Source: Lachnospiraceae bacterium (GTDB lineage: Bacteria; Bacillota; Clostridia; Lachnospirales; Lachnospiraceae). From it: a stretch of 64,000 nucleotides of DNA. The stretch is taken from assembly GCA_017434885.1 (NCBI GenBank), contig JAFSGE010000045.1:34782-98781 (forward strand). Reading direction: 5' to 3'. The position numbers were made by a program, and so were the translations under genes. The notes under the pieces are model-generated. The model was not told the DNA's origin and searched no databases. It saw nothing but the letters and a program-made list of their open reading frames with translations. Below are positions 1 through 10,655 of this stretch, in pieces. The first letter of the stretch is position 1, and every line of letters begins with the position of its first letter.

Positions 1-2
1 CC

Positions 3-1970
3 CATAAGCTGGAAGATGTATTCTTTTATTTGAGAGAATCAAAACCCGATAATGTTCCCCATTTGGAATTGGTTGAGCATGTTCTTCAGGTAGTTGACTT
101 TATTTCCAGTGAAATGATTAAAATTCAGGAAGGCGGGCAGCCTGACGGAGATGCAAGTGATTATGTGACTGCTCTTGATCAGTTTTTGGATAAGATTAAG
201 AACGGCAAGGGTGAAAAGGGCAAAGAGATTAAGGAAAATGTGCACGTGGAGCCGGAGCAGTTTTATATTGCACCTATGGCTACAAGCGCAAGTCATTTTT
301 ATAAAATTTACTTAACCTTCCACCCGGATGTACAGCTTGCCAATGTACATGCTTATAAAACGGTTTATGCGTTGAAAGAAATGGCAGAGGATTTACTTCA
401 CTATCCGGAAGACATTATTTCTGACGAATCAACGGCGGAAGAGATTCTGGAGAACGGATTTAAAATTCTTTTGCAGGCACAGTGCAGTGAGCAAGATTTG
501 CGCGGTGTTATTCAGGAAGGCTATGAACTGAAAAAAGTAGATATTTATGAATGTACTGCCAAGGAATTCCAACAGGGATTTGACAGCATCGGTTCTGAAA
601 TCAGAATTGATTTGGAATCCAGTGTGGAAGAGATAGAGTCAAAAACAGATGGCGGCGGCATGATGTTTATTGCTCCCGATGTTTCTGTGGAAGCACCTAA
701 GGAAGCAGAGAAAAAAGCTATTGCCCCCGGTGATTTCGTTATTGAGTCCAAGGAACCCGGTAAAGGAAAGAAGCTGGTGAAGGATAAGCCTAAGAAAATG
801 GAAAAGGCAGCCCTTATCAGCGTGGATGTCCACAAGATGGACATGCTCATGGATTTAATCGGTGAACTTGTAATTGCAGAATCCGTGGTACTTCAGAATC
901 AGGATTTGAAGGTACCGGGCTTAAGGCTTGATAATTTCAATAAAGCGGCAGGTCAGATGACCAAAATATCCACGGATTTGCAGAACGTGATTATGAGTAT
1001 GAGAATGATGCCTCTTACCAATACGTTCCAGAAGATGAACCGTATTGTGTTTGACGTTTCCCGTAAGCTCGGTAAAGAGATTGAATTTGAGATGGTAGGC
1101 GAGCACACGGAAGTGGACAAGAACATCATTGAACATATTTCCGACCCTATGATGCATCTGGTAAGAAATTCCGTAGACCACGGTATTGAGATGCCCGATG
1201 AGCGTGCGGCAGCAGGCAAAACAGAAAAGGGTAAGGTTACCTTATCTGCCAAGACAGAGTCCGGTAAGGTTTGGATTACCGTACAGGATAACGGAAAGGG
1301 ATTAAACCGTCAGAAGATTCTTGCAAAAGCGAGAAAGCAGGGATTGCTTGATCCTTACAAAATGGATAACGATTACACAGATAAAGAAGTATATCAGTTC
1401 ATCACACTGCCAGGATTTTCCACCAATGAGAAGGTGACGGAATATTCCGGAAGAGGCGTAGGTATGGATGTAGTAGTATCTAATTTACAATCCATAGGCG
1501 GAAGTCTTGAAATTGAAAGTACGCCGGGTAAGGGTAGCCAGATGATTATGAAGATTCCTCTTACCCTTGCCATTATCGATGGTATCGTTATGGAAGTAGG
1601 TAAGTCTTCCTTCGTAATCGAAACCGGTGTGGTAAAAGAGTTTATCGGAATGCGCAGTGATATGATGCAGAGTGATCCGGATGGCTCGGAATTTGTAATG
1701 ATCCGTGGTGAGTGTTATCCTGTGCTTCGCATCGGCGAGTGGTATCAACTGAATGACTATAAGTCAGATCTTGATAACGGAATGCTGGTATTGATAGAGG
1801 TAGAGAAGAAAATGATTTGTCTGTTTGTAGACCGTTTGGTAGGAAAACAGGAAATCGTGGTAAAACCCATTCCCGATTATATCAAGAAAGTAAAGGGACT
1901 ATCAGGATGTACGCAGTTAGGTGACGGCAGTATCGCATTGATTCTCGATGCGGCCGGATTGATTGAATAA
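3..1970 (+). CDS. cheA: Chemotaxis histidine kinase CheA (5' end cut by window)
   Basis: Central kinase of chemotaxis: it autophosphorylates on a histidine in its P1 domain and passes phosphate to CheY and CheB at receptor arrays. The reading frame is open from base 3, so the TTG at 30 is not a real start; the fragment opens in the end of the P1/Hpt helical bundle (HKLEDVFYFLRESK) and the phospho-acceptor His lies outside the window. A P2-like segment follows (about fragment residues 85-185), then an acidic/Lys-rich linker, the P3 dimerisation helices (VDVHKMDMLMDLIGELVI), a P4 ATPase with N box (HLVRNSVDHGIE), G1 (DNGKGL) and G2 (GRGVGMD), and a C-terminal CheW-like P5. cheW follows after 25 nt. 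Family assignment is secure. Confidence 0.97.
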   Translation, partial: HKLEDVFFYLRESKPDNVPHLELVEHVLQVVDFISSEMIKIQEGGQPDGDASDYVTALDQFLDKIKNGKGEKGKEIKENVHVEPEQFYIAPMATSASHFYKIYLTFHPDVQLANVHAYKTVYALKEMAEDLLHYPEDIISDESTAEEILENGFKILLQAQCSEQDLRGVIQEGYELKKVDIYECTAKEFQQGFDSIGSEIRIDLESSVEEIESKTDGGGMMFIAPDVSVEAPKEAEKKAIAPGDFVIESKEPGKGKKLVKDKPKKMEKAALISVDVHKMDMLMDLIGELVIAESVVLQNQDLKVPGLRLDNFNKAAGQMTKISTDLQNVIMSMRMMPLTNTFQKMNRIVFDVSRKLGKEIEFEMVGEHTEVDKNIIEHISDPMMHLVRNSVDHGIEMPDERAAAGKTEKGKVTLSAKTESGKVWITVQDNGKGLNRQKILAKARKQGLLDPYKMDNDYTDKEVYQFITLPGFSTNEKVTEYSGRGVGMDVVVSNLQSIGGSLEIESTPGKGSQMIMKIPLTLAIIDGIVMEVGKSSFVIETGVVKEFIGMRSDMMQSDPDGSEFVMIRGECYPVLRIGEWYQLNDYKSDLDNGMLVLIEVEKKMICLFVDRLVGKQEIVVKPIPDYIKKVKGLSGCTQLGDGSIALILDAAGLIE

Positions 1971-1995
1971 ATAAGAGAAAGGGAGAAAGGTGCAT

Positions 1996-2505
1996 ATGAG
2001 TGAGTTCGAAACACAAACACAATTAGACAAATATGTAACCTTCAAATCGGGAAACGAATATTTCGGTCTGAAAATTGAGTATGTAAACGAAATTATTGTT
2101 TATCAGGAAATTACCGAGATTCCCGAAAGTGAAGATTACATCAAAGGACTGATTAACCTTCGAGGAAAAATCATTCCCGTAATTGACGTTAGAATCCGAT
2201 TTAAGCAGGAACCGATTGAATATAATGACAGAACCTGCATTATTGTAATTAACGTAAAAGATACCGTGGTTGGCCTGATTGTAGAGAAAATCGCAGAGGT
2301 TGTTGAGATTAAGCAGGATGATATTCTGCCGCCTCCTTCCGCAACAATCGGACATGAAGAAAAGACACAGAACAAATATGTGTACGGTATCGGCAAAGTA
2401 GGTGAAAACGTAAAATTACTGCTTGACCCTGACAGATTGTTAAAGGATGAGGAACTGAATCTGCTCGACCAGGCAACGGAAGAGAATGAGGAAGAAGGAG
2501 AATAA
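1996..2505 (+). CDS. cheW: Chemotaxis coupling protein CheW
   Basis: CheW links chemoreceptors to CheA in cytoplasmic arrays. The product is about 169 residues, the usual size, and is one CheW domain: an N-terminal segment ([18 protein letters not shown]), the typical [14 protein letters not shown] core strand, and a charged Glu-rich tail (EENEEEGE). An in-frame GTG lies at 1990, but GGGAGAAAGG at 1981-1990 is spaced correctly only for the ATG at 1996. It sits between cheA and a receptor gene, 5 nt before the latter, so the three are almost certainly co-transcribed. There is nothing unusual apart from the acidic tail. Confidence 0.96.
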
Positions 2506-2510
2506 TCACT

Positions 2511-3869
2511 ATGAAAAATATGAAAATGCATACAAAACTTACAATCGGTTACATTATTTTGAGTATCCTGCTTGTGATTTCCATTTATACCGGTTATACA
2601 TCAGCGGCAAATATTATGGCCCTTGATCCTTCGGAACAGGGAAGATATTTGAGTAACTATGCAACATTTACGGCAATTCTCTTTATTGTAATGTCACTTA
2701 TAACAGGGGGCATTGCGATTACATTAACTAAATTAATCCGTTCTTCTTTTGCCAAGCTTACAAAAGCAGCTGATGAGATGGCAGCCGGCAAAGTGGATGT
2801 AAAGCTTGAAAAAGACAACAATGATGAATTTGGTATGTTGATGGATGATTTCCAAAAGGTTATTGATGGCACCCGTTATCAGGCACAGATTGCGCAGGAA
2901 GTTGCAACCGGAAATTTGATGGTGGATGTCCGCCCCAGATCTGATGAGGATGTTATGGGTCAGGCACTTAAGACAATGGTGGTAAATAATCAGCACACAC
3001 TTGGAAATATCAAGGATGCGGCTTATCAGGTAACAACCAGCTCTTCCCAGGTTGCAAGTGCAAGTGAAGCGTTGGCACAGGGGTCCACTGAGCAGGCAAG
3101 TGCTATTGAGCAGATTACAGCATCTATTGATGATATTGCTGAAAAGACCAAACAGAATGCTTCTCAGGCAAATGAAGCAGCAAATCTGGTAGGAAAAGCA
3201 ATTCTCGATGTAAAGAAGGGCAATGAGGAAATGCGCGAAATGGTAGTTGCTATGCAGGATATCAATAAGGCATCCGAAAGCATCTCCAAGATTATCAAAG
3301 TGATTGATGATATTGCGTTCCAGACCAATATTCTTGCATTGAATGCGGCAGTGGAAGCAGCAAGAGCCGGCGAAGCAGGAAAAGGCTTTGCAGTAGTAGC
3401 GGAAGAAGTAAGAAACTTAGCGGCAAAGAGTGCTTCTGCAGCTGCTGAAACTGCGGAACTGATTGAAGATTCCATTCAGAAGGTGGGCGTTGGTTCCAAG
3501 ATTGCAAATGATACAGCAGCAGCTTTGGAAGAAATTAACGAAGTGGTTAAGCAGAGTGAAGGCATTATCAATGAAATCGCAGAAGCATCCAATTATCAGG
3601 CAACAGCCATTACACAGATTGATCAGGCGATTGCACAGGTATCACAGGTTGTACAGACAAACTCTGCAACCAGCCAGGAATGTGCGGCGGCAAGTATCGA
3701 ATTGTCCAATCAGGCAAGCCGTATGCGTGAGATGCTTGCAGTATACAAGTTGAATAATAACTCTTACGGTTCTATGGACATGGGAGATAGCATGGGCCAC
3801 CGTTACAGCAGTACATCCGACAGAAATGAACAGATTATTTCTTTGAAGGATGGTTTTGGAAAGTATTAA
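2511..3869 (+). CDS. Methyl-accepting chemotaxis protein with minimal outside loop
   Basis: Chemoreceptor of 452 residues. Two transmembrane helices (about 10-30 and 50-72) are separated by only about 20 residues, so there is no room for an extracellular ligand domain. A HAMP region follows (about 72-125), then a further helical segment and the coiled-coil signalling domain with the conserved hairpin tip ([20 protein letters not shown]). No C-terminal CheR-binding pentapeptide is seen. Because it lies directly after cheW in the chemotaxis operon, it may sense membrane state, an intracellular signal or a partner protein rather than a bound outside ligand; that is inference. The start ATG is preceded by AAGGAG at 2495-2500. 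A strong terminator follows. Confidence 0.93.
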
Positions 3870-3882
3870 TGTAGTATAAAAT

Positions 3883-3928
3883 ATACCGGCACCAGGAGCG
3901 TTGCGGTGTCGGTATGTTTGCATTTTTT
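3883..3928 (+). terminator. Intrinsic terminator after the receptor gene
   Basis: The arms ATACCGGCACC (3883-3893) and GGTGTCGGTAT (3905-3915) form an 11-bp stem with one G-T pair, followed by a T run at 3923-3928. It ends only about 5 nt before the ribosome binding site of the next kinase gene. It also overlaps an upstream in-frame ATG at 3914, which argues against that ATG as the kinase start. Confidence 0.85.
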
Positions 3929-3946
3929 CGCCGGGAGGATTTTAAC

Positions 3947-6667
3947 GTGGGAAAATTCACCTACATGGGTAGTCAAAAAATAATTGAACGCTTTGTTATG
4001 GTTTTTTTCAGCGTATATGCAGCGACCATGATGATTATAACCGAGAAATACATCGGATTTGCTATTATGACAGGTTTGGTGATTTGTTGGTTGCTGAATA
4101 CAAGTAAGTACAGGACTTTTGAATTCAGAGCTGTGGTTACTTCCGTTGTCATGCAGTTAAGTGTGGTTTTGTACGGAATGCAGCTTGAGAGCATATCTCC
4201 GGTGCTTTCAGTCTTTATTGTGTTTACGCTGGTGCTTGGGCTGTATGGAATGGAGACGATTATCGGACTTTCCGTGATATCGTCCGTGATTCTTTTTTGC
4301 TATCATGCGTGGGTTGTCCGCAGTATTCCGCTTGGCAATATAACGCAGGTTATGAATTTGATTTCGCAGATTGTAAACCTTCTGATTGTGCAGTATGTGG
4401 TCTATATCTGGACAAAGAGAAACAGAGAAGGCAGCGAACAGCTGATGGAGACAATTGAGGAATTGCAGGAAGTAGAGCGGACTAAGGATGATTTTGTGGC
4501 AAATGTCAGTCATGAAATCAGAACGCCCATTAATACCATATGCGGTATGAGTGACCTGATTATGAGACAGGATTTGCCTTATGAAACCAAAGAGAATGTT
4601 CTGAGTATCCAGATGGCAAGTGAAAACCTGATGGCGGTAGTCAGTGATATTCTTGATTTTTCCGAATTGCAGGCTGAGCAGATTGAACTGGAGGAGGAAG
4701 CATATCATATTACAACCACGATAAATGATGTGGTAAATCATACACTGGCACGCAGGGGAGATAAAAAAATAGAAATTATTGTGGATTGCGACGCAAATAT
4801 CCCTTCAGTACTTTTGGGAGATGAAAAGAAGCTCCGCAGAGTAATTATAAAATTGGTGGACAATGCCATTAAATTTACGGATGAAGGATTTGTGAGTATT
4901 GCAGTCAGTGCCCGTAAGGAAAGCTACGGAGTGAATTTGTCCGTTTCGGTAAAAGACAGCGGTATCGGTATATCGGAAGAAGGACTTGAAAAGGTATTTA
5001 CCAGCTTTAGTCAGATAAATACAAGCAGCAACCGTCAGGAAGGCGGTCTTGGTCTGGGCCTTGCAATCTCCAATGCACTGGTTCAGAAGATGGGCGGAGC
5101 AATTACGGTAAACAGTAAACCCGGTAAAGGGACTACGGTACAGTTTGTTGTGCCGCAGAAGGTACTGGAAGAGATTCCTGTTGCGGTTGTTAATCAAAAA
5201 GAAAATATTAATGCGGCAGTCTATATTGATATGGAGCAGTTTGATATGGTTGCCATTCGTGACGAGTATATAAAGGCAGTTACCCACATTATGGAGCAGC
5301 TTAAGGTGGATTATCTTGCCTGCCGTAATCTGGCAGAACTGCAGAGAAGAGAGAAGAAAGAGAACTTCTCACATGTATTTATAAATATGACCGGATATCG
5401 TCAGAATCCATCCTATTTTGAAGAACTGGCGAAGAAAACAAAAGTGATAATTATTATGGATCACAAGGATGAGAAGGAGATTAAATCTCAGGAATTTATA
5501 AAGATATACAAGCCATTATATGTATTGAAAATTACGTCTGTATTAAACGGATTACAGGATAAAAGCAGAGAAGAATATCAAAGCGGTAATGAGAAATTTA
5601 CAACCCAGGATGCTCATGTACTCGTGGTGGATGACAACAGAATGAATCTGCGCGTAGTCAAAGAGATGCTTAAGATTTATAACATTAAGGTGACAACTGC
5701 AATCAGCGGTAAAGATGCATTGGAGAAGATTATTTCAGAGGATTATGATTTTGTGTTCATGGATCATATGATGCCGGAAATGGACGGCGTGGAAACCTTC
5801 CACCGCATCAGAAACAATGTGGGAGCTTATTATAAGAAGGTTCCGATTGTTGCGCTGACGGCAAATGCGGTTGCCGGTGCAAGGGAAATGATGCTAAAAG
5901 AAGGCTTTAACGATTTCCTTGCAAAACCCATTGAGCGTTCTGTTTTGGAGAGAGTATTAAAGAGAAATCTTCCGCCAAACAAAATTATCTATGAAGATTA
6001 TGAGGAAGAGACAGAAGCTGTTATTGAAGAAAAAGATGAATTTGTAATTGAAGGACTTGATGTGCAGCAGGGCATTGTTTACTGTAACGGAAAAGAGCAG
6101 TATATTAAGATTTTACAGGGGTATTGCGAAGACTGGAATGATGCCGGTGCTACAACGCAGGAAGCGTTTGAAAAAGAGGATTGGAAGAATTATACCATAG
6201 CCGTACACGGTTTAAAGAGTGCCATGAGAAGTATCGGTGCACTTGCTGTTTCAGAAAAAGCCAGAAAGCTGGAAATGGCAGGAAAAGAAGACAGGATAGA
6301 TTATATTCTCGAACATCACAGAGAATTAATGAAAGCATACGAAGAATTGTTTGCACAATTGAGAAAAAATGAATTGCTTTGTCCCGGTGGCAGTGTGCAG
6401 AAACAGCGAAATAAGAAACACAGTGATTTGCCGGAACTGGAAGAAGAAGTGTTAGACTGTAAGATTGCAGAAATGGAAGAAGCGATGTATGCGTGGAATG
6501 GAGAGCTTCTGATGGAGATTATCGGTGAATTAAAGAAGTACCAATATGGCGATTATGTGCTGTCAGAGGTTTTAGCACCGGTAGAGCGTAAGGTGGAAAT
6601 GTCCGATTATATGTCGGCGGTAGAAACTGTGAAACGTTGGAAGGACGGTTTGACCGATAAGGAGTAA
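3947..6667 (+). CDS. Membrane hybrid histidine kinase with receiver and Hpt domains
   Basis: Multi-step phosphorelay kinase of about 906 residues. The start is GTG 3947, with GGGAGGA at 3933-3939; the in-frame ATG at 3914 lies inside the terminator and has no ribosome binding site. Order: several transmembrane helices (about 10-155), HisKA with SHEIRTP (phospho-His about residue 189), HATPase with VDNAIKFT, DSGIG and GGLGLGLA, a receiver-like stretch without a phospho-acceptor Asp (about 420-540), a true receiver (LVVDDNRMN, FMDHMMPEMDG, phospho-Asp about 606, AKP lysine), and an Hpt domain (AVHGLKSAMRSIG, His about 754). A further helical tail of about 80 residues looks like an Hpt bundle lacking its His. 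The next kinase starts 6 nt later, so they probably work as a pair. No DNA-binding response regulator is nearby. Confidence 0.92.
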   Translation: MGKFTYMGSQKIIERFVMVFFSVYAATMMIITEKYIGFAIMTGLVICWLLNTSKYRTFEFRAVVTSVVMQLSVVLYGMQLESISPVLSVFIVFTLVLGLYGMETIIGLSVISSVILFCYHAWVVRSIPLGNITQVMNLISQIVNLLIVQYVVYIWTKRNREGSEQLMETIEELQEVERTKDDFVANVSHEIRTPINTICGMSDLIMRQDLPYETKENVLSIQMASENLMAVVSDILDFSELQAEQIELEEEAYHITTTINDVVNHTLARRGDKKIEIIVDCDANIPSVLLGDEKKLRRVIIKLVDNAIKFTDEGFVSIAVSARKESYGVNLSVSVKDSGIGISEEGLEKVFTSFSQINTSSNRQEGGLGLGLAISNALVQKMGGAITVNSKPGKGTTVQFVVPQKVLEEIPVAVVNQKENINAAVYIDMEQFDMVAIRDEYIKAVTHIMEQLKVDYLACRNLAELQRREKKENFSHVFINMTGYRQNPSYFEELAKKTKVIIIMDHKDEKEIKSQEFIKIYKPLYVLKITSVLNGLQDKSREEYQSGNEKFTTQDAHVLVVDDNRMNLRVVKEMLKIYNIKVTTAISGKDALEKIISEDYDFVFMDHMMPEMDGVETFHRIRNNVGAYYKKVPIVALTANAVAGAREMMLKEGFNDFLAKPIERSVLERVLKRNLPPNKIIYEDYEEETEAVIEEKDEFVIEGLDVQQGIVYCNGKEQYIKILQGYCEDWNDAGATTQEAFEKEDWKNYTIAVHGLKSAMRSIGALAVSEKARKLEMAGKEDRIDYILEHHRELMKAYEELFAQLRKNELLCPGGSVQKQRNKKHSDLPELEEEVLDCKIAEMEEAMYAWNGELLMEIIGELKKYQYGDYVLSEVLAPVERKVEMSDYMSAVETVKRWKDGLTDKE

Positions 6668-6673
6668 TGGCGG

Positions 6674-9355
6674 ATGTGGAAAAAATTATTTCAAAAAATA
6701 TATGGAGAGGACTGTGAACTGCGGGAGAGAACTTTCCGCACGATTGTCATAGTCGGATGTATTGCAACTATTTTGGCAATTACTGAAATTTTTATCGTGA
6801 TGCAATTACATCCTTTGCTTGTATCAGCTTTGTTGTGCCTGCTTTTGGGAATGGGCGTAAGCATGTTTGTCATTTTTAAATATCGTAAATATAATTTGGC
6901 GTCATCGCTTTTGGGAATCGGAATTGTAGGGATTGTGATGCCTATTCTGTTTTGCTTAAGCGGAGCGGTCGACAGTGGGTCGTCAGTATGGCTTGCATTG
7001 GGAATGATATACCTTTTTCTTATGTTTAGCGGGAAAAAGCTTGCATGCTATTTGATTTTTAGTATTGTGATGTATGGTGCTACATACGGGATTACTTACT
7101 TTTATCCAGGTCTTGTCGTTCCTATGAGGTCCAGAGCAGCAGCTTATGTGGATTCTCTGTTTTCCGTGATTGTGGTGGGAATTATCAGTGGCTTGATTAT
7201 TAAGGCAAATATGATTGTGTTTGAAAAGGAACATAAGCTGAATGTTGAGCAGAATGAAGAACTGGAAAGAAGCAGAGATGCAAAAAATGTGTTCTTTGCC
7301 AACATGAGTCATGAAATCAGAACACCGATTAATGCTATTATTGGTCTGAACGAAATGATTATGCGACTGAATCAGGAAGGGGAGACTCTGGAATATGCGA
7401 AGGATATCGAGGTTGCCAGTAAAATGCTTTTAAGTCAGGTGAATGATATTCTTGATTTGTCTCAGCTTGAAATGCAGAAAATGAAACTGGTGCCGATAGA
7501 ATATCAGACAAAGCGGATGTTCAGGGATTTGTCTGATATGGTGCGTATGCAGGCAGAAAAGAAGGGGCTTGCTTTGCATATGGATATAGACAGAAATCTT
7601 CCCTCGGTTCTTTACGGTGATGAAAAACGGTTAAAACAGGTTTTATTGAATCTGCTTGATAATGCGGTGAAATATACTGCGGAAGGTTCTGTATCACTGT
7701 CGGTACAGTTTGATAAGGTGAGTGAAAATGAAATTAGTCTGAAGGCGGCTGTAGTAGATACCGGGATTGGTATCCGAAAAGAAGATATCGGACATATTTA
7801 TGAATCCTTTAACCGTCTGGACGAAAAGAAAAATAAGCGAATTATCGGAAGCGGACTTGGGCTTTCCATTACGAAACAGTTGGTGGATTTGCTTGGCGGA
7901 GAAATTACCATTGACAGTATTTATACAAAAGGGAGTATATTTACTGTGATTGTTAAGCAAAAGATAATCAATGAAACACCGATAGGTAATGTGATGTTTG
8001 CACAGGAAGAACGTGCGAGTGGTGAAACTTATAAACCTTTATTTGAAGCACCGGAAGCGAGAATTCTGATTGTAGATGATAACAGAATGAATTCCATGGT
8101 GGCAAGTAAACTGTTATCCTATACCAAGATGCAGGTCGACGTGGCAGGAAGCGGAACAGAATGCCTTGAGATGACAAAGAAGAAATACTATCACGTGATT
8201 CTGATGGATTCCATGATGCCGGATATGGACGGGGAAGAAACCATGAAGGCATTGCAGATACAGGAAAACGGTTTGTGCAGGGAGTCAGCAGTCATTGTAA
8301 TTACGGGAAATACTAAGGCCGGTGCCAGAGGAGAATATCTGGAACAGGGATTTGACGGTTACGTGGAAAAACCGATTCAGGGAAGATTATTGGAAGAAGA
8401 AATAATGCAATTCCTGCCCGGGGATATTATTGAAGTGAGCGAAACAAAGGATAAAGCTGATAGTGATATGGGGCAGATGCAAAGGCTGACCGGTAAAAAG
8501 CGTAAAAAGATTTATGTGACTTCTGATTGTGCATGTGATATTCCGGCAGATTTACTGGAAGAGTACGATATCAGAATGATGTATCTGTATATTAAAACAC
8601 CGCATGGTCGGTTTGCCGATACCAGGGAAATTGATATAGACAGTTTGTCCCGGTATGTCGAAGAAGAAAGCAGTACAGCTTATGCAGACAGCGTGACGGT
8701 GGAAGAATATGAGCAGTTCTTTGCGGAAACACTGGCGCAGGCAGATAGTGTGATTCATATCTCACTGGCCTCCCGTTCAGGAAAGAGTTACAGTATTGCA
8801 CAGACGGCAGCCAAGAACTTTGACCATGTGCATATTATAGACTCCGGACAGATTTCCGGTGGACAGGGTCTGATTACACTTTGTGCGGCAAAGATGGCAA
8901 AAGAGGGTGCAAACGTAAAAGAAATCTGTGAGAAGCTGGAGAGAAAATTGGAGCATATTAATACAAGAGTAATAATGCCGGGTGCAGATATCTTCTACCA
9001 GAACGGAAGGGCAAGGAAGATAACGGCTAAAGCGTGTCAGATATTCAGCTTACATCCTTATATGATGATGCATCAAAAGAAAGCAATTTTAGTAGCACTC
9101 TTCGGAGGAAGCTTAGAGCATGCATGGAGGCAGGCAATTGCATGGACATTTAGGCGAAAACGTAAAATTGATTCGGGAATAGTTTTTATTTCTCATGTGG
9201 GATGCAGTGTGAAACAGCAGGAGTGGATACGCAGGGAAATTTTGAAACGCGTGCCGTTTGAGCAGGTGATTATACAGAAAACATCTTTCACAAATGCATG
9301 TAATGTGGGGCAAAAAGCAATCGGAATTGCTTATTTTACAAAAGAAAAACAATAA
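6674..9355 (+). CDS. Hybrid histidine kinase fused to a DegV fatty-acid-binding domain
   Basis: This 893-residue protein joins two families not normally found together. Residues 20-180 hold about six membrane helices. HisKA follows with SHEIRTP (His 213), HATPase with LLDNAVKYT, DTGIG and GSGLGLS, and a receiver (LIVDDNRMN, ILMDSMMPDMDG with Asp 512, VEKP). After a basic linker (GKKRKK), residues about 612-890 read as a DegV/EDD domain: opening VTSDCACDIPADLL, the SLASRSGKSYSIA segment matching the family's Ser-rich ligand loop, IIDSGQISGGQG, and a QNGRARK segment in place of the usual GGR. DegV proteins bind fatty acids, and FakB is the acyl carrier for fatty-acid kinase. Some usual ligand residues are changed (TSQPS region replaced by ADSVT), so lipid binding is inferred. 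It is translated 6 nt after the preceding kinase. Confidence 0.88.
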   Translation: MWKKLFQKIYGEDCELRERTFRTIVIVGCIATILAITEIFIVMQLHPLLVSALLCLLLGMGVSMFVIFKYRKYNLASSLLGIGIVGIVMPILFCLSGAVDSGSSVWLALGMIYLFLMFSGKKLACYLIFSIVMYGATYGITYFYPGLVVPMRSRAAAYVDSLFSVIVVGIISGLIIKANMIVFEKEHKLNVEQNEELERSRDAKNVFFANMSHEIRTPINAIIGLNEMIMRLNQEGETLEYAKDIEVASKMLLSQVNDILDLSQLEMQKMKLVPIEYQTKRMFRDLSDMVRMQAEKKGLALHMDIDRNLPSVLYGDEKRLKQVLLNLLDNAVKYTAEGSVSLSVQFDKVSENEISLKAAVVDTGIGIRKEDIGHIYESFNRLDEKKNKRIIGSGLGLSITKQLVDLLGGEITIDSIYTKGSIFTVIVKQKIINETPIGNVMFAQEERASGETYKPLFEAPEARILIVDDNRMNSMVASKLLSYTKMQVDVAGSGTECLEMTKKKYYHVILMDSMMPDMDGEETMKALQIQENGLCRESAVIVITGNTKAGARGEYLEQGFDGYVEKPIQGRLLEEEIMQFLPGDIIEVSETKDKADSDMGQMQRLTGKKRKKIYVTSDCACDIPADLLEEYDIRMMYLYIKTPHGRFADTREIDIDSLSRYVEEESSTAYADSVTVEEYEQFFAETLAQADSVIHISLASRSGKSYSIAQTAAKNFDHVHIIDSGQISGGQGLITLCAAKMAKEGANVKEICEKLERKLEHINTRVIMPGADIFYQNGRARKITAKACQIFSLHPYMMMHQKKAILVALFGGSLEHAWRQAIAWTFRRKRKIDSGIVFISHVGCSVKQQEWIRREILKRVPFEQVIIQKTSFTNACNVGQKAIGIAYFTKEKQ

Positions 9356-9360
9356 TTTCA

Positions 9361-9395
9361 GAAGAAATCTTGAGAAATCAAGATTTCTTCTTTTT
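9361..9395 (+). terminator. Intrinsic terminator after the kinase-DegV gene
   Basis: A perfect 12-bp stem GAAGAAATCTTG / CAAGATTTCTTC (9361-9372 and 9379-9390) with a 6-nt loop is followed by TTTTT. It closes the chemotaxis and kinase block. Confidence 0.92.
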
Positions 9396-9470: not shown

Positions 9471-10655
9471 ATGAATACGCTGATGAAAGTTTTGACAACA
9501 GTTTTGGGCGTACTGGCAGTAATTGCCTGTGTGGCGACAATCGGTATTATCGGGTATTCCATGAGTGACGGTAATACAGAGAAGGATGCTGTGAAGGAGA
9601 CGGACAAAAAGGTGGAAAAGGTTGCGGCGAAGGATGCGGTGACACAGCAAGAAGAAAAACAGGATGTCATCGTGGTGGCACCTTCAGGACAGCAGCCCAC
9701 ACCGCTTGTGGCACCAAATGCTGCAAACAGTACGACAGACCCCGACCATATACATGATTATGAAGAAGAAATTGAACAGAAGGCAACCTGTTATCAGGCA
9801 GGGCGTTTGAGATATCACTGTGATTGCGGTGACAGTTATTTTGTTGATATTTCCTCGACCGGACATGTGGAAGATGCCTGGGTGGTGCAGAAAGAAGCCA
9901 CTAAGGAGCATGACGGACTTAAGGTGAAGAAATGTATTTACTGCGATGAAGTGGTAGCACAGGAGATTATTCCTTACGAGGGCGATGAAACGGATGCACC
10001 TGAGGAGAAGCATTATCACCAGTATACTCCCAGAGTAGAGAGGGAACCCAGCTGTGTACTTGCAGGACTTCGTAAATACAGTTGTGTATGCGGAAGCTTT
10101 TACACAGAGAAGATATCAGCACTTGGTCATGTTGCATCCGACTGGACAATTGCAGCAGCACCAACAACTACTACACTCGGCACAGAGCAGAGAACCTGTA
10201 ACGTGTGTGGCGTAGTGCTTGATTCCAGACCGGTGAATACCGTATCAGCTACACCGGCAGCATCCGGCTCGGCATCACCGACGGCAACAACATCCGGGAA
10301 TACAACGGCGACGGCAACACCTGCAGGCACGACAGCATCGGCAACGCCTACAGCAGCACAAGGCGGAAACCCGTCGGCATCACCTGATGCCAGTGCCACG
10401 CCGGCGAACACATTGCATGCCCATAGCTATACATCCTATGTACTAAAGGAGCCAACATGTGCCGAAAAGGGAATACGTTCCTTTGTTTGTACCTGTGGCA
10501 GCAGCTATGCGGAACTGATAGATGTGGATCCGAACAATCATAGTTTCCAGGCGGTGATTACGGCACCTACCAAAAATTCCAGTGGATTTACCACTTACAC
10601 CTGCGTATGGTGTGCTTACAGCTACGTAGACAATTATGTATCAGCTACCGGCTGA
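9471..10655 (+). CDS. Membrane-anchored extracytoplasmic protein with three Cys-rich repeats
   Basis: 394 residues of unknown function. An N-terminal hydrophobic helix (about 5-28) anchors it; VIAC at 17-20 loosely resembles a lipobox, but the helix continues past the Cys, so a membrane anchor is likelier. After a charged stalk come three related modules at about 93-158, 181-246 and 315-381. Each runs His-x-Tyr, Cys, about nine residues, CxCGxxY, a Gly/Asn-His pair, and a closing CxxC. An Ala/Ser/Thr/Pro-rich linker (about 258-314) separates modules 2 and 3. Similar CxxCG/GH repeats are common in Firmicutes surface proteins. The Cys/His pattern suggests metal binding or disulfides, but neither is shown. 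GGAG at 9461-9464 supports the start. Confidence 0.78.
   Translation: MNTLMKVLTTVLGVLAVIACVATIGIIGYSMSDGNTEKDAVKETDKKVEKVAAKDAVTQQEEKQDVIVVAPSGQQPTPLVAPNAANSTTDPDHIHDYEEEIEQKATCYQAGRLRYHCDCGDSYFVDISSTGHVEDAWVVQKEATKEHDGLKVKKCIYCDEVVAQEIIPYEGDETDAPEEKHYHQYTPRVEREPSCVLAGLRKYSCVCGSFYTEKISALGHVASDWTIAAAPTTTTLGTEQRTCNVCGVVLDSRPVNTVSATPAASGSASPTATTSGNTTATATPAGTTASATPTAAQGGNPSASPDASATPANTLHAHSYTSYVLKEPTCAEKGIRSFVCTCGSSYAELIDVDPNNHSFQAVITAPTKNSSGFTTYTCVWCAYSYVDNYVSATG

Follow-up and report, generated by a model that had tools for sequence, protein, structure and literature searches.

We analyzed a 64,000-nucleotide (nt) stretch of a Lachnospiraceae bacterium genome (contig JAFSGE010000045.1, positions 34,782 to 98,781; hereafter the window), which holds a gene encoding a histidine kinase (HK), a receiver (REC) and a DegV domain in one protein. 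Features are collected in Table 1. The 893-residue frame contains no internal stop, and domain searches with Pfam and NCBIfam agreed with the original prediction, made from the sequence without database searches, that a kinase runs unbroken into a DegV domain at about residues 612-890. Specifically, the DegV part matched the Pfam model from position 1 to 279 of 280 (E = 3.8e-33, 115 bits against a cut-off of 27) and TIGR00762 at 126 bits (cut-off 99.7), and the assignment of the fold rests on these full-length profile matches. The protein carries the features that define a hybrid kinase: HisKA with its His, HATPase, and a receiver with Asp and Lys. The kinase His213 and receiver Asp512, both assigned in the original prediction, were kept together with Lys566 in 121 of 121 aligned fused proteins (at least 680 residues and not cut by a contig end), so the window fusion is an active-looking hybrid kinase. 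A terminator scan of the region found two candidates against 1.8 expected in shuffles; the one listed in Table 1 has the longer stem and, because it follows directly on the stop codon, the fusion gene is probably the last in its operon.

Table 1. Features of the DegV fusion gene and its upstream neighbors (window coordinates; residues refer to the encoded protein)
Feature	Coordinates	Strand	Basis
HK-REC-DegV fusion gene, 893 residues	6674..9355	+	Open frame, ATG start; Pfam architecture
N-terminal hydrophobic (membrane) region, residues 1-203	6674..7282	+	Membrane segments by eye; no Pfam match
HisKA, residues 204-266; acceptor His213 at 7310-7312	7283..7471	+	Pfam, E 1.7e-16
HATPase_c, residues 315-429	7616..7960	+	Pfam, E 3.3e-24
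Response_reg (receiver), residues 464-576; Asp512 at 8207-8209	8063..8401	+	Pfam, E 2.7e-21
DegV (EDD) domain, residues 612-889	8507..9340	+	Pfam PF02645, NCBIfam TIGR00762
14-bp hairpin and T tail, starting 4 bases past the fusion stop	9360..9391	+	Terminator scan; fold z -4.0
Partner kinase HisKA-HATPase-pseudoREC-REC-Hpt, 917 residues; His200, Asp617, Hpt His765	3914..6667	+	Pfam; pseudo-receiver read from sequence, no Pfam match
Methyl-accepting chemotaxis protein (HAMP-MCPsignal); gene order shared by some members of the window's clade	2511..3869	+	Pfam
CheW	1990..2505	+	Pfam
CheA, starting about 204 bases before the window	1..1970	+	Pfam on whole gene (L059:9796-11967)

The DegV part was matched in 82 of 200 genomes of the window's family (E <= 1e-15), and 34 of the 200, the window's own included (count from the table of matches), hold DegV in a frame of 724-1166 residues; in one of these 34 (G103) the long frame is present only as a form with a degenerate kinase. 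With these 34 genomes and 120 distinct HK-REC-DegV proteins, the same fusion is present in many separate genomes, as the original prediction had proposed to check, and we rejected the possibility that a sequencing error had joined two genes. A wide spread across the phylum was likewise rejected. Frames of more than 600 residues occurred only in the window's family and one other (f45) in a class-level search (391 genomes, E <= 1e-55), and a phylum-level search (299 genomes, E <= 1e-70) found long frames only in three of the window's family, its own genome included; in both searches, scoring was limited to 6 to 8 candidates per genome at most. We also scanned named genomes with an 11-row subset of DegV queries, which tilts the named loci towards the main clade of these domains. 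Most of the best 80 of 563 confirmed places came from metagenome-assembled genomes (MAGs) called Lachnospiraceae, Acetatifactor, Ruminiclostridium, Eubacterium, Roseburia or Clostridia, with single records named Bacteroides (L148), Oscillospiraceae (L141, L153), Thermoflexaceae (L124) and spirochaete (L181). The last of these (L181:5611-8286) is the same cassette in a MAG named as the spirochaete Ca. Avitreponema, reflecting either horizontal transfer or bin contamination.

Altogether we obtained 159 distinct DegV open reading frames (ORFs) in 163 sources, 140 of them of the signaling type (138 loci). These comprise 120 HK-REC-DegV proteins, 7 with a histidine phosphotransfer domain (Hpt) added (HK-REC-DegV-Hpt), 5 unfused DegVs, 2 REC-DegV in ORFs cut or split from the kinase part, 2 degenerate-kinase forms, 2 DegV-Hpt (L246, L247), 1 DegV-HK-REC-Hpt and 1 DegV-HK-Hpt. 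The 138 loci were selected for their similarity to the fused DegV and do not constitute a random sample; contigs fetched repeatedly were removed by sequence identity. We performed Pfam on 9 window proteins and 26 proteins of relatives and own-genome loci, and most domain calls in relatives came from models built from seed sequences of these loci. The 19 ORFs set aside as "other" include two cut or split cassette members (L188, L244), which are outside the 17/17 figures below and were kept in the residue counts. The 5 unfused DegVs were assigned to the signaling set by their neighbor, and for that reason one cannot argue, without circularity, that canonical DegVs never follow HK-REC-Hpt.

The fusion gene does not stand alone; the original prediction overlooked its partner gene, the c-di-GMP (cyclic di-GMP) and chemosensory neighbors and an unfused form elsewhere in the genome. 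Its partner, a second hybrid kinase, ends 6 nt upstream, and of 124 signaling DegV genes with at least 3 kb of upstream sequence, 101 directly followed an HK-REC-Hpt gene, 12 an HK-REC gene, 2 a tandem fusion copy and 3 a fragment with Hpt. The commonest spacing between partner and DegV gene was -4 nt, a 4-nt overlap (65 loci). All 102 of the aligned HK-REC-Hpt partners kept the His of the kinase, the Asp of the receiver and the His of the Hpt. In the 116 pairs for which both genes were complete, Hpt was found in the partner only in 101, in the DegV protein only in 11, in both in none and in neither in 4; two of these last four are second copies of a tandem fusion, with the Hpt gene one gene further up. 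Pfam placed an Hpt in the DegV protein of L056 and none in the partner of L058. By this distribution, Hpt has moved between the members of the pair without being doubled, and we take this to mean that selection acts on the two proteins as a single relay. At L143:5458-10849 and L156:3781-9170, tandem duplicates of the fusion follow a single HK-REC-Hpt partner (L156 and L251 appear to be one and the same contig).

Unfused forms of the cassette are also found. The best-scoring other DegV of the window's own genome (L190, 282 residues) is unfused and lies 3 nt after an HK-REC-Hpt gene that in turn follows a REC-HD-GYP gene, meaning that fused and unfused stages are both alive, even in one genome. 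Unfused DegV genes also follow HK-REC-Hpt at L200, L202, L242 and L243; at two of these loci a REC-GGDEF gene comes behind. A DegV tree with 94 domains placed the 55 signaling domains in one clade (100/100) with 39 canonical domains outside, and the fusions and degenerate-kinase forms formed a nested group (95/96) that excludes the three unfused cassette forms in the tree (L242 and L243 are absent from it, and the placement of L202 is weakly supported at 91/31). In a kinase tree built by a quick method, 52 fusion kinases and the kinase from the split L244 gene clustered together and separately from the partner kinases. The latter did not form a single group; those paired with the five unfused DegVs made up one (SH-aLRT 89). 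Because the unfused cassette forms branch outside the nested fusion group, the simplest order is a carrier that became the third gene of a kinase and c-di-GMP operon, was fused to a second kinase and was then shuffled. Like the architecture, the partner, the single Hpt per pair and the residue losses described below, this order is read from sequence, in its case by the tree.

Several loci depart from the common layout. At L248:3808-8544 (minus strand), DegV stands at the N-terminus of a 1578-residue DegV-dCache-HK-REC-Hpt protein, and in the same genome (G768) it stands at the N-terminus of a 960-residue DegV-HK-Hpt protein (L252:5946-8828, minus strand). At L211:7790-10378 and L212:7951-10563, the kinase lacks the acceptor-His motif and a receiver match, and GGDEF genes come next. 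At L244:7684-10363, HK-REC and DegV are overlapping ORFs in different frames, which is either a true split or an assembly indel.

These layouts bear on the direction of signaling. The receiver could be a switch and DegV its output, with phosphorylation of Asp512 opening or closing a lipid-binding domain and thereby altering the membrane or a lipid pool. In keeping with this, the receiver lies directly N-terminal to DegV across a linker of near-constant length (in 40 proteins, 32-40 residues separate the fixed points), an arrangement shared with ordinary response regulators. However, DegV is unfused at 5 loci, N-terminal at 2 (one genome) and without an intact receiver at 2, and the arginine that contacts membrane and fatty-acid kinase in carriers (Arg205, below) is lost. 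We consider DegV as output rather improbable, and the suggestion in the original prediction that the receiver controls lipid binding becomes less likely as the purpose of the fusion. We read DegV as an input domain rather than an output, because it is also found as a separate protein next to the partner, ahead of a dCache kinase in the same chain and on a kinase that has lost its acceptor His and any recognizable receiver.

We next compared the domain with FakB1 of Staphylococcus aureus, a DegV protein that carries fatty acids to the fatty-acid kinase FakA. According to the accessible parts of PMC8892158 and PMC9136124, Thr62, Ser95, Ser171 and His270 of FakB1 form a carboxylate network, catalysis depends on Arg173, binding to FakA and to the membrane depends on Arg205, and both arginines are called completely conserved in FakB. 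In the alignment, Thr62 corresponds to A671 of the window protein, Ser95 to G703, Ser171 to N777, Arg173 to R779, Arg205 to G811 and His270 to N877 (the Arg205 and Ser95 positions depend on the alignment near gaps). The original prediction of changed ligand residues is thus borne out in general. In particular, the TSQPS-type loop does read ADSVT (671-675), whereas the GGR-type loop, thought to be replaced by QNGRARK, keeps the Gly-Arg of FakB (G778-R779). By this alignment, the changes at G811 and N877 matter more than the loop changes named earlier.

The same two changes mark the signaling DegVs as a group. Arg205 was kept in 2 of 140, the His270 position held Asn in 133 and His in 3, and Arg173 was kept in 106. 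Ser or Thr was found at the Thr62 position in 127 of 140 and at the Ser95 position in 108 of 140, in a set that leans towards the main clade. Of the canonical DegVs whose context was read, 17 of 17 had His270 and 17 of 17 had Arg205; put differently, of 22 unfused DegVs with context, the 5 that follow HK-REC-Hpt have Asn and lack Arg205, and the other 17 have both His and Arg. In the overlapping 94-row set, Arg205 was present in 2/55 signaling versus 37/39 canonical domains and His270 in 1/55 versus 38/39. We conclude from these comparisons that the residue coupling the domain to fatty-acid kinase was lost at the base of the clade, that most of the main clade retains polar contacts, and that the window's branch has changed further. 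Asn for His270 together with the absence of Arg205 is a simple annotation mark that tells signaling DegVs from carriers. The Asn mark is also present in the DegVs of L211 and L212. The second tandem copies at L143 and L156 have His back at this position. Two of the 17 canonical DegV genes, both with His and Arg kept, adjoin an ordinary receiver and kinase gene pair at L209:7786-10505 and L210:9961-12843.

With these residues in view, a FakB-type carrier that works with FakA, with the kinase reading acyl-phosphate or fatty-acid flux, is hard to credit, even though FakA is encoded in the window's genome and R779 preserves the catalytic arginine. Arg205, key for FakA binding (PMC8892158 and PMC9136124, accessible parts), is lost in 138 of 140, and the window domain scored 48 bits against the NCBIfam FakB1 equivalog model, far from its cut-off of 350. 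The window protein retains Arg173 and lacks both Arg205 and the Thr62/Ser95/His270 network, and on the Arg205 and His270 residues and the model score we rejected membership in FakB, for it and, by the loss of Arg205 and the change of His270 to Asn, for the signaling clade. The idea in the original prediction of a kinase that reads acyl-phosphate is accordingly unlikely, with Arg173 itself kept in only 106 of 140.

A different possibility is that DegV binds no ligand and serves as a protein-docking or dimerizing scaffold that links the two kinases or positions them at the membrane. Arg205 and His270 are lost in nearly all, the Thr62 and Ser95 contacts are lost in the window's clade and Arg173 is not constant; moreover, DegV usually adjoins a partner kinase and is retained at L211 and L212 on a kinase without an acceptor His. 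Against this, the frequency of Ser or Thr at the Thr62 and Ser95 positions exceeds what a pure scaffold would need, with the weighting of the set noted above, and Arg173 persists in most members. We regard a scaffold without ligand as unlikely, if the most serious of the alternatives.

The genes around the pair point to its possible outputs. We determined which gene lies above the partner in 108 loci (Pfam on examples): it encoded HD-GYP and/or GGDEF domains in 68, a bare receiver in 8 and a further HK-REC-Hpt in 3, two of which sit behind a tandem fusion. CheA, CheW and the methyl-accepting chemotaxis protein (MCP) lay directly above the partner in 8 of 40 loci (the window counted once), and L214 also has CheA upstream. 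All of these loci fall within the window's branch of the DegV tree, and not every member of that branch has them. From these neighbors we infer that the relay may act on c-di-GMP or motility.

Taken together, we think it probable that the DegV domain is the cytosolic input of a two-kinase phosphorelay linked to c-di-GMP. The fusion protein would be one half of a conserved unit, with the partner at 3914-6667 carrying the only Hpt of the pair; both kinases would pass phosphoryl groups via their receivers to this Hpt and then to a response regulator. In most relatives the regulator would be a REC-HD-GYP or REC-GGDEF protein that alters c-di-GMP, and in the window's operon the candidates are REC-HD-GYP and the CheY/CheB-type receivers. 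DegV, by this account a former fatty-acid carrier turned cytosolic regulatory domain, would bias the kinase/phosphatase balance of the pair through its ligand state or through docking, and would be unable to hand a ligand to FakA. We infer the phosphate flow, the direction of signaling, the ligand class and the output on c-di-GMP and motility from this arrangement. A cytosolic lipid input is plausible, and the setting beside c-di-GMP enzymes suggests that a lipid sensed inside the cell may steer behavior. For the main clade, a fatty acid or a similar lipid probably remains the ligand; for the window's clade, where the carboxylate contacts are largely lost, another acyl compound, perhaps an uncharged one, or the surface of a protein is the more probable partner of the domain.

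Several observations weigh against a lipid-input relay. In the window's wider branch (13 rows), the Thr62 position is Ala or Gly in 7 and the Ser95 position is Gly in 10; because these carboxylate contacts are largely lost there, a small ligand may be absent. By the rule used, 6 of the 124 DegV genes have no partner (L112, L125, L166, L195, L211 and L212): the first three have shortened frames, L195 has a kinase frame and a REC-Hpt frame nearby that fall outside the rule, and the last two are the degenerate kinases. The partner Hpt looks lost or decayed in two pairs, L044 and L055. No recognized domain was found two genes upstream in 29 of the 108 loci, with models that left out CheW and MCP. 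Finally, a family-3 solute-binding lipoprotein gene directly follows the fusion in 37 of 138 signaling loci; at those 37, a solute outside the cell may therefore act as a second signal or even as the main one.

Two of these groups of loci can be described further. In L044:3254-5662 and L055:11220-13658 (both minus strand), a tail of the partner remains at the place of Hpt, without a clear motif and, by eye, apparently without His. The lipoprotein genes (for example L113:10861-11664, L041:7587-8387 and L142:10897-11694, with 34 more loci) lie a median of 23 nt downstream of the fusion on the same strand; one member matched PF00497 and the rest were assigned by similarity.

In the window itself, the gene downstream of the fusion is not a family-3 solute-binding protein by Pfam. 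Beyond the operon, positions 9471-10655 encode a protein, secreted or anchored in the membrane, that contains several repeats rich in Cys and His (CxxxG...CxCG...GH, by eye) and matched no family above cut-off. In the other direction, the operon continues past the window edge with HK-REC-Hpt, PAS-HK, REC-HD-GYP (L059:6427-7503), CheR, CheB and a CheY-like receiver (Pfam), and the che genes separate REC-HD-GYP from HK-REC-Hpt. The chemosensory set of this operon comprises CheA, CheW, MCP, CheR, CheB and the CheY-like receiver. The genome has two CheA-type places, the second on C30, as well as 3 flagellin matches and 14 HD_5 domains. We also scanned 7 loci for RNA elements; only RNase P, tRNA and a thiamine pyrophosphate (TPP) riboswitch were above threshold, and a known RNA element tied to the cassette was rejected for these loci.

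The separate domains and the general layout of a hybrid-kinase relay are already known. For the DegV-bearing two-kinase cassette, the signaling DegV clade and its residue marks, we found no description among the open-licence papers listed, judged by their titles and the openings of their abstracts. RpfC of Xanthomonas carries a REC-Hpt layout and RpfG carries a REC. The corresponding gene layout, HK-REC-Hpt beside REC-HD-GYP, occurs at L190 and in many relatives. In that system, the fatty acid diffusible signal factor (DSF) acts on the hybrid kinase RpfC and the cognate regulator is an HD-GYP phosphodiesterase. Both systems would combine a hybrid kinase with an HD-GYP c-di-GMP phosphodiesterase; RpfC senses DSF by a 22-residue N-terminal region, and the accessible part of PMC5391125 describes no DegV part, whereas here there are two kinases and a DegV domain. 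We consider RpfC-RpfG the nearest functional analogue, without implying family membership. A fatty-acid-responsive c-di-GMP phosphorelay in Lachnospiraceae, a counterpart of RpfC/RpfG in which perception is intracellular, by a domesticated FakB-like domain that derives from the cell's own machinery for lipid uptake and was first a separate protein and later fused to a second kinase, is a tentative proposal that we hold to be possible rather than probable. The window's family is common in animal guts, and the protein pair could be used to ask whether commensal Clostridia sense cytosolic lipids and convert them to c-di-GMP.

Rhodospirillum centenum belongs to another phylum. Its Che3 system (CheA3-CheS3) is similar in that a Che-type cluster with phosphate-exchanging hybrid kinases serves a control other than chemotaxis; it differs in that the abstract of PMC3868531 names neither DegV nor such an Hpt-bearing partner. 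FakB4 of Streptococcus pyogenes is a DegV-family protein with a regulatory rather than a supply role in lipid content, and is a FakB according to its authors, with no kinase link in the abstract of PMC10138225. The S. aureus FakB1/DegV fatty-acid-binding proteins belong to the same fold family over the full length (PF02645, TIGR00762), and the Gly-Arg of the lid is kept in the window protein; unlike FakB, the window DegV is fused to a hybrid kinase, lacks Arg205 and His270 and, judging by its residues, would not be a FakA substrate. DegV proteins are known as lipid carriers; here, a clade has dropped the residue that docks to fatty-acid kinase and has joined a signaling unit.

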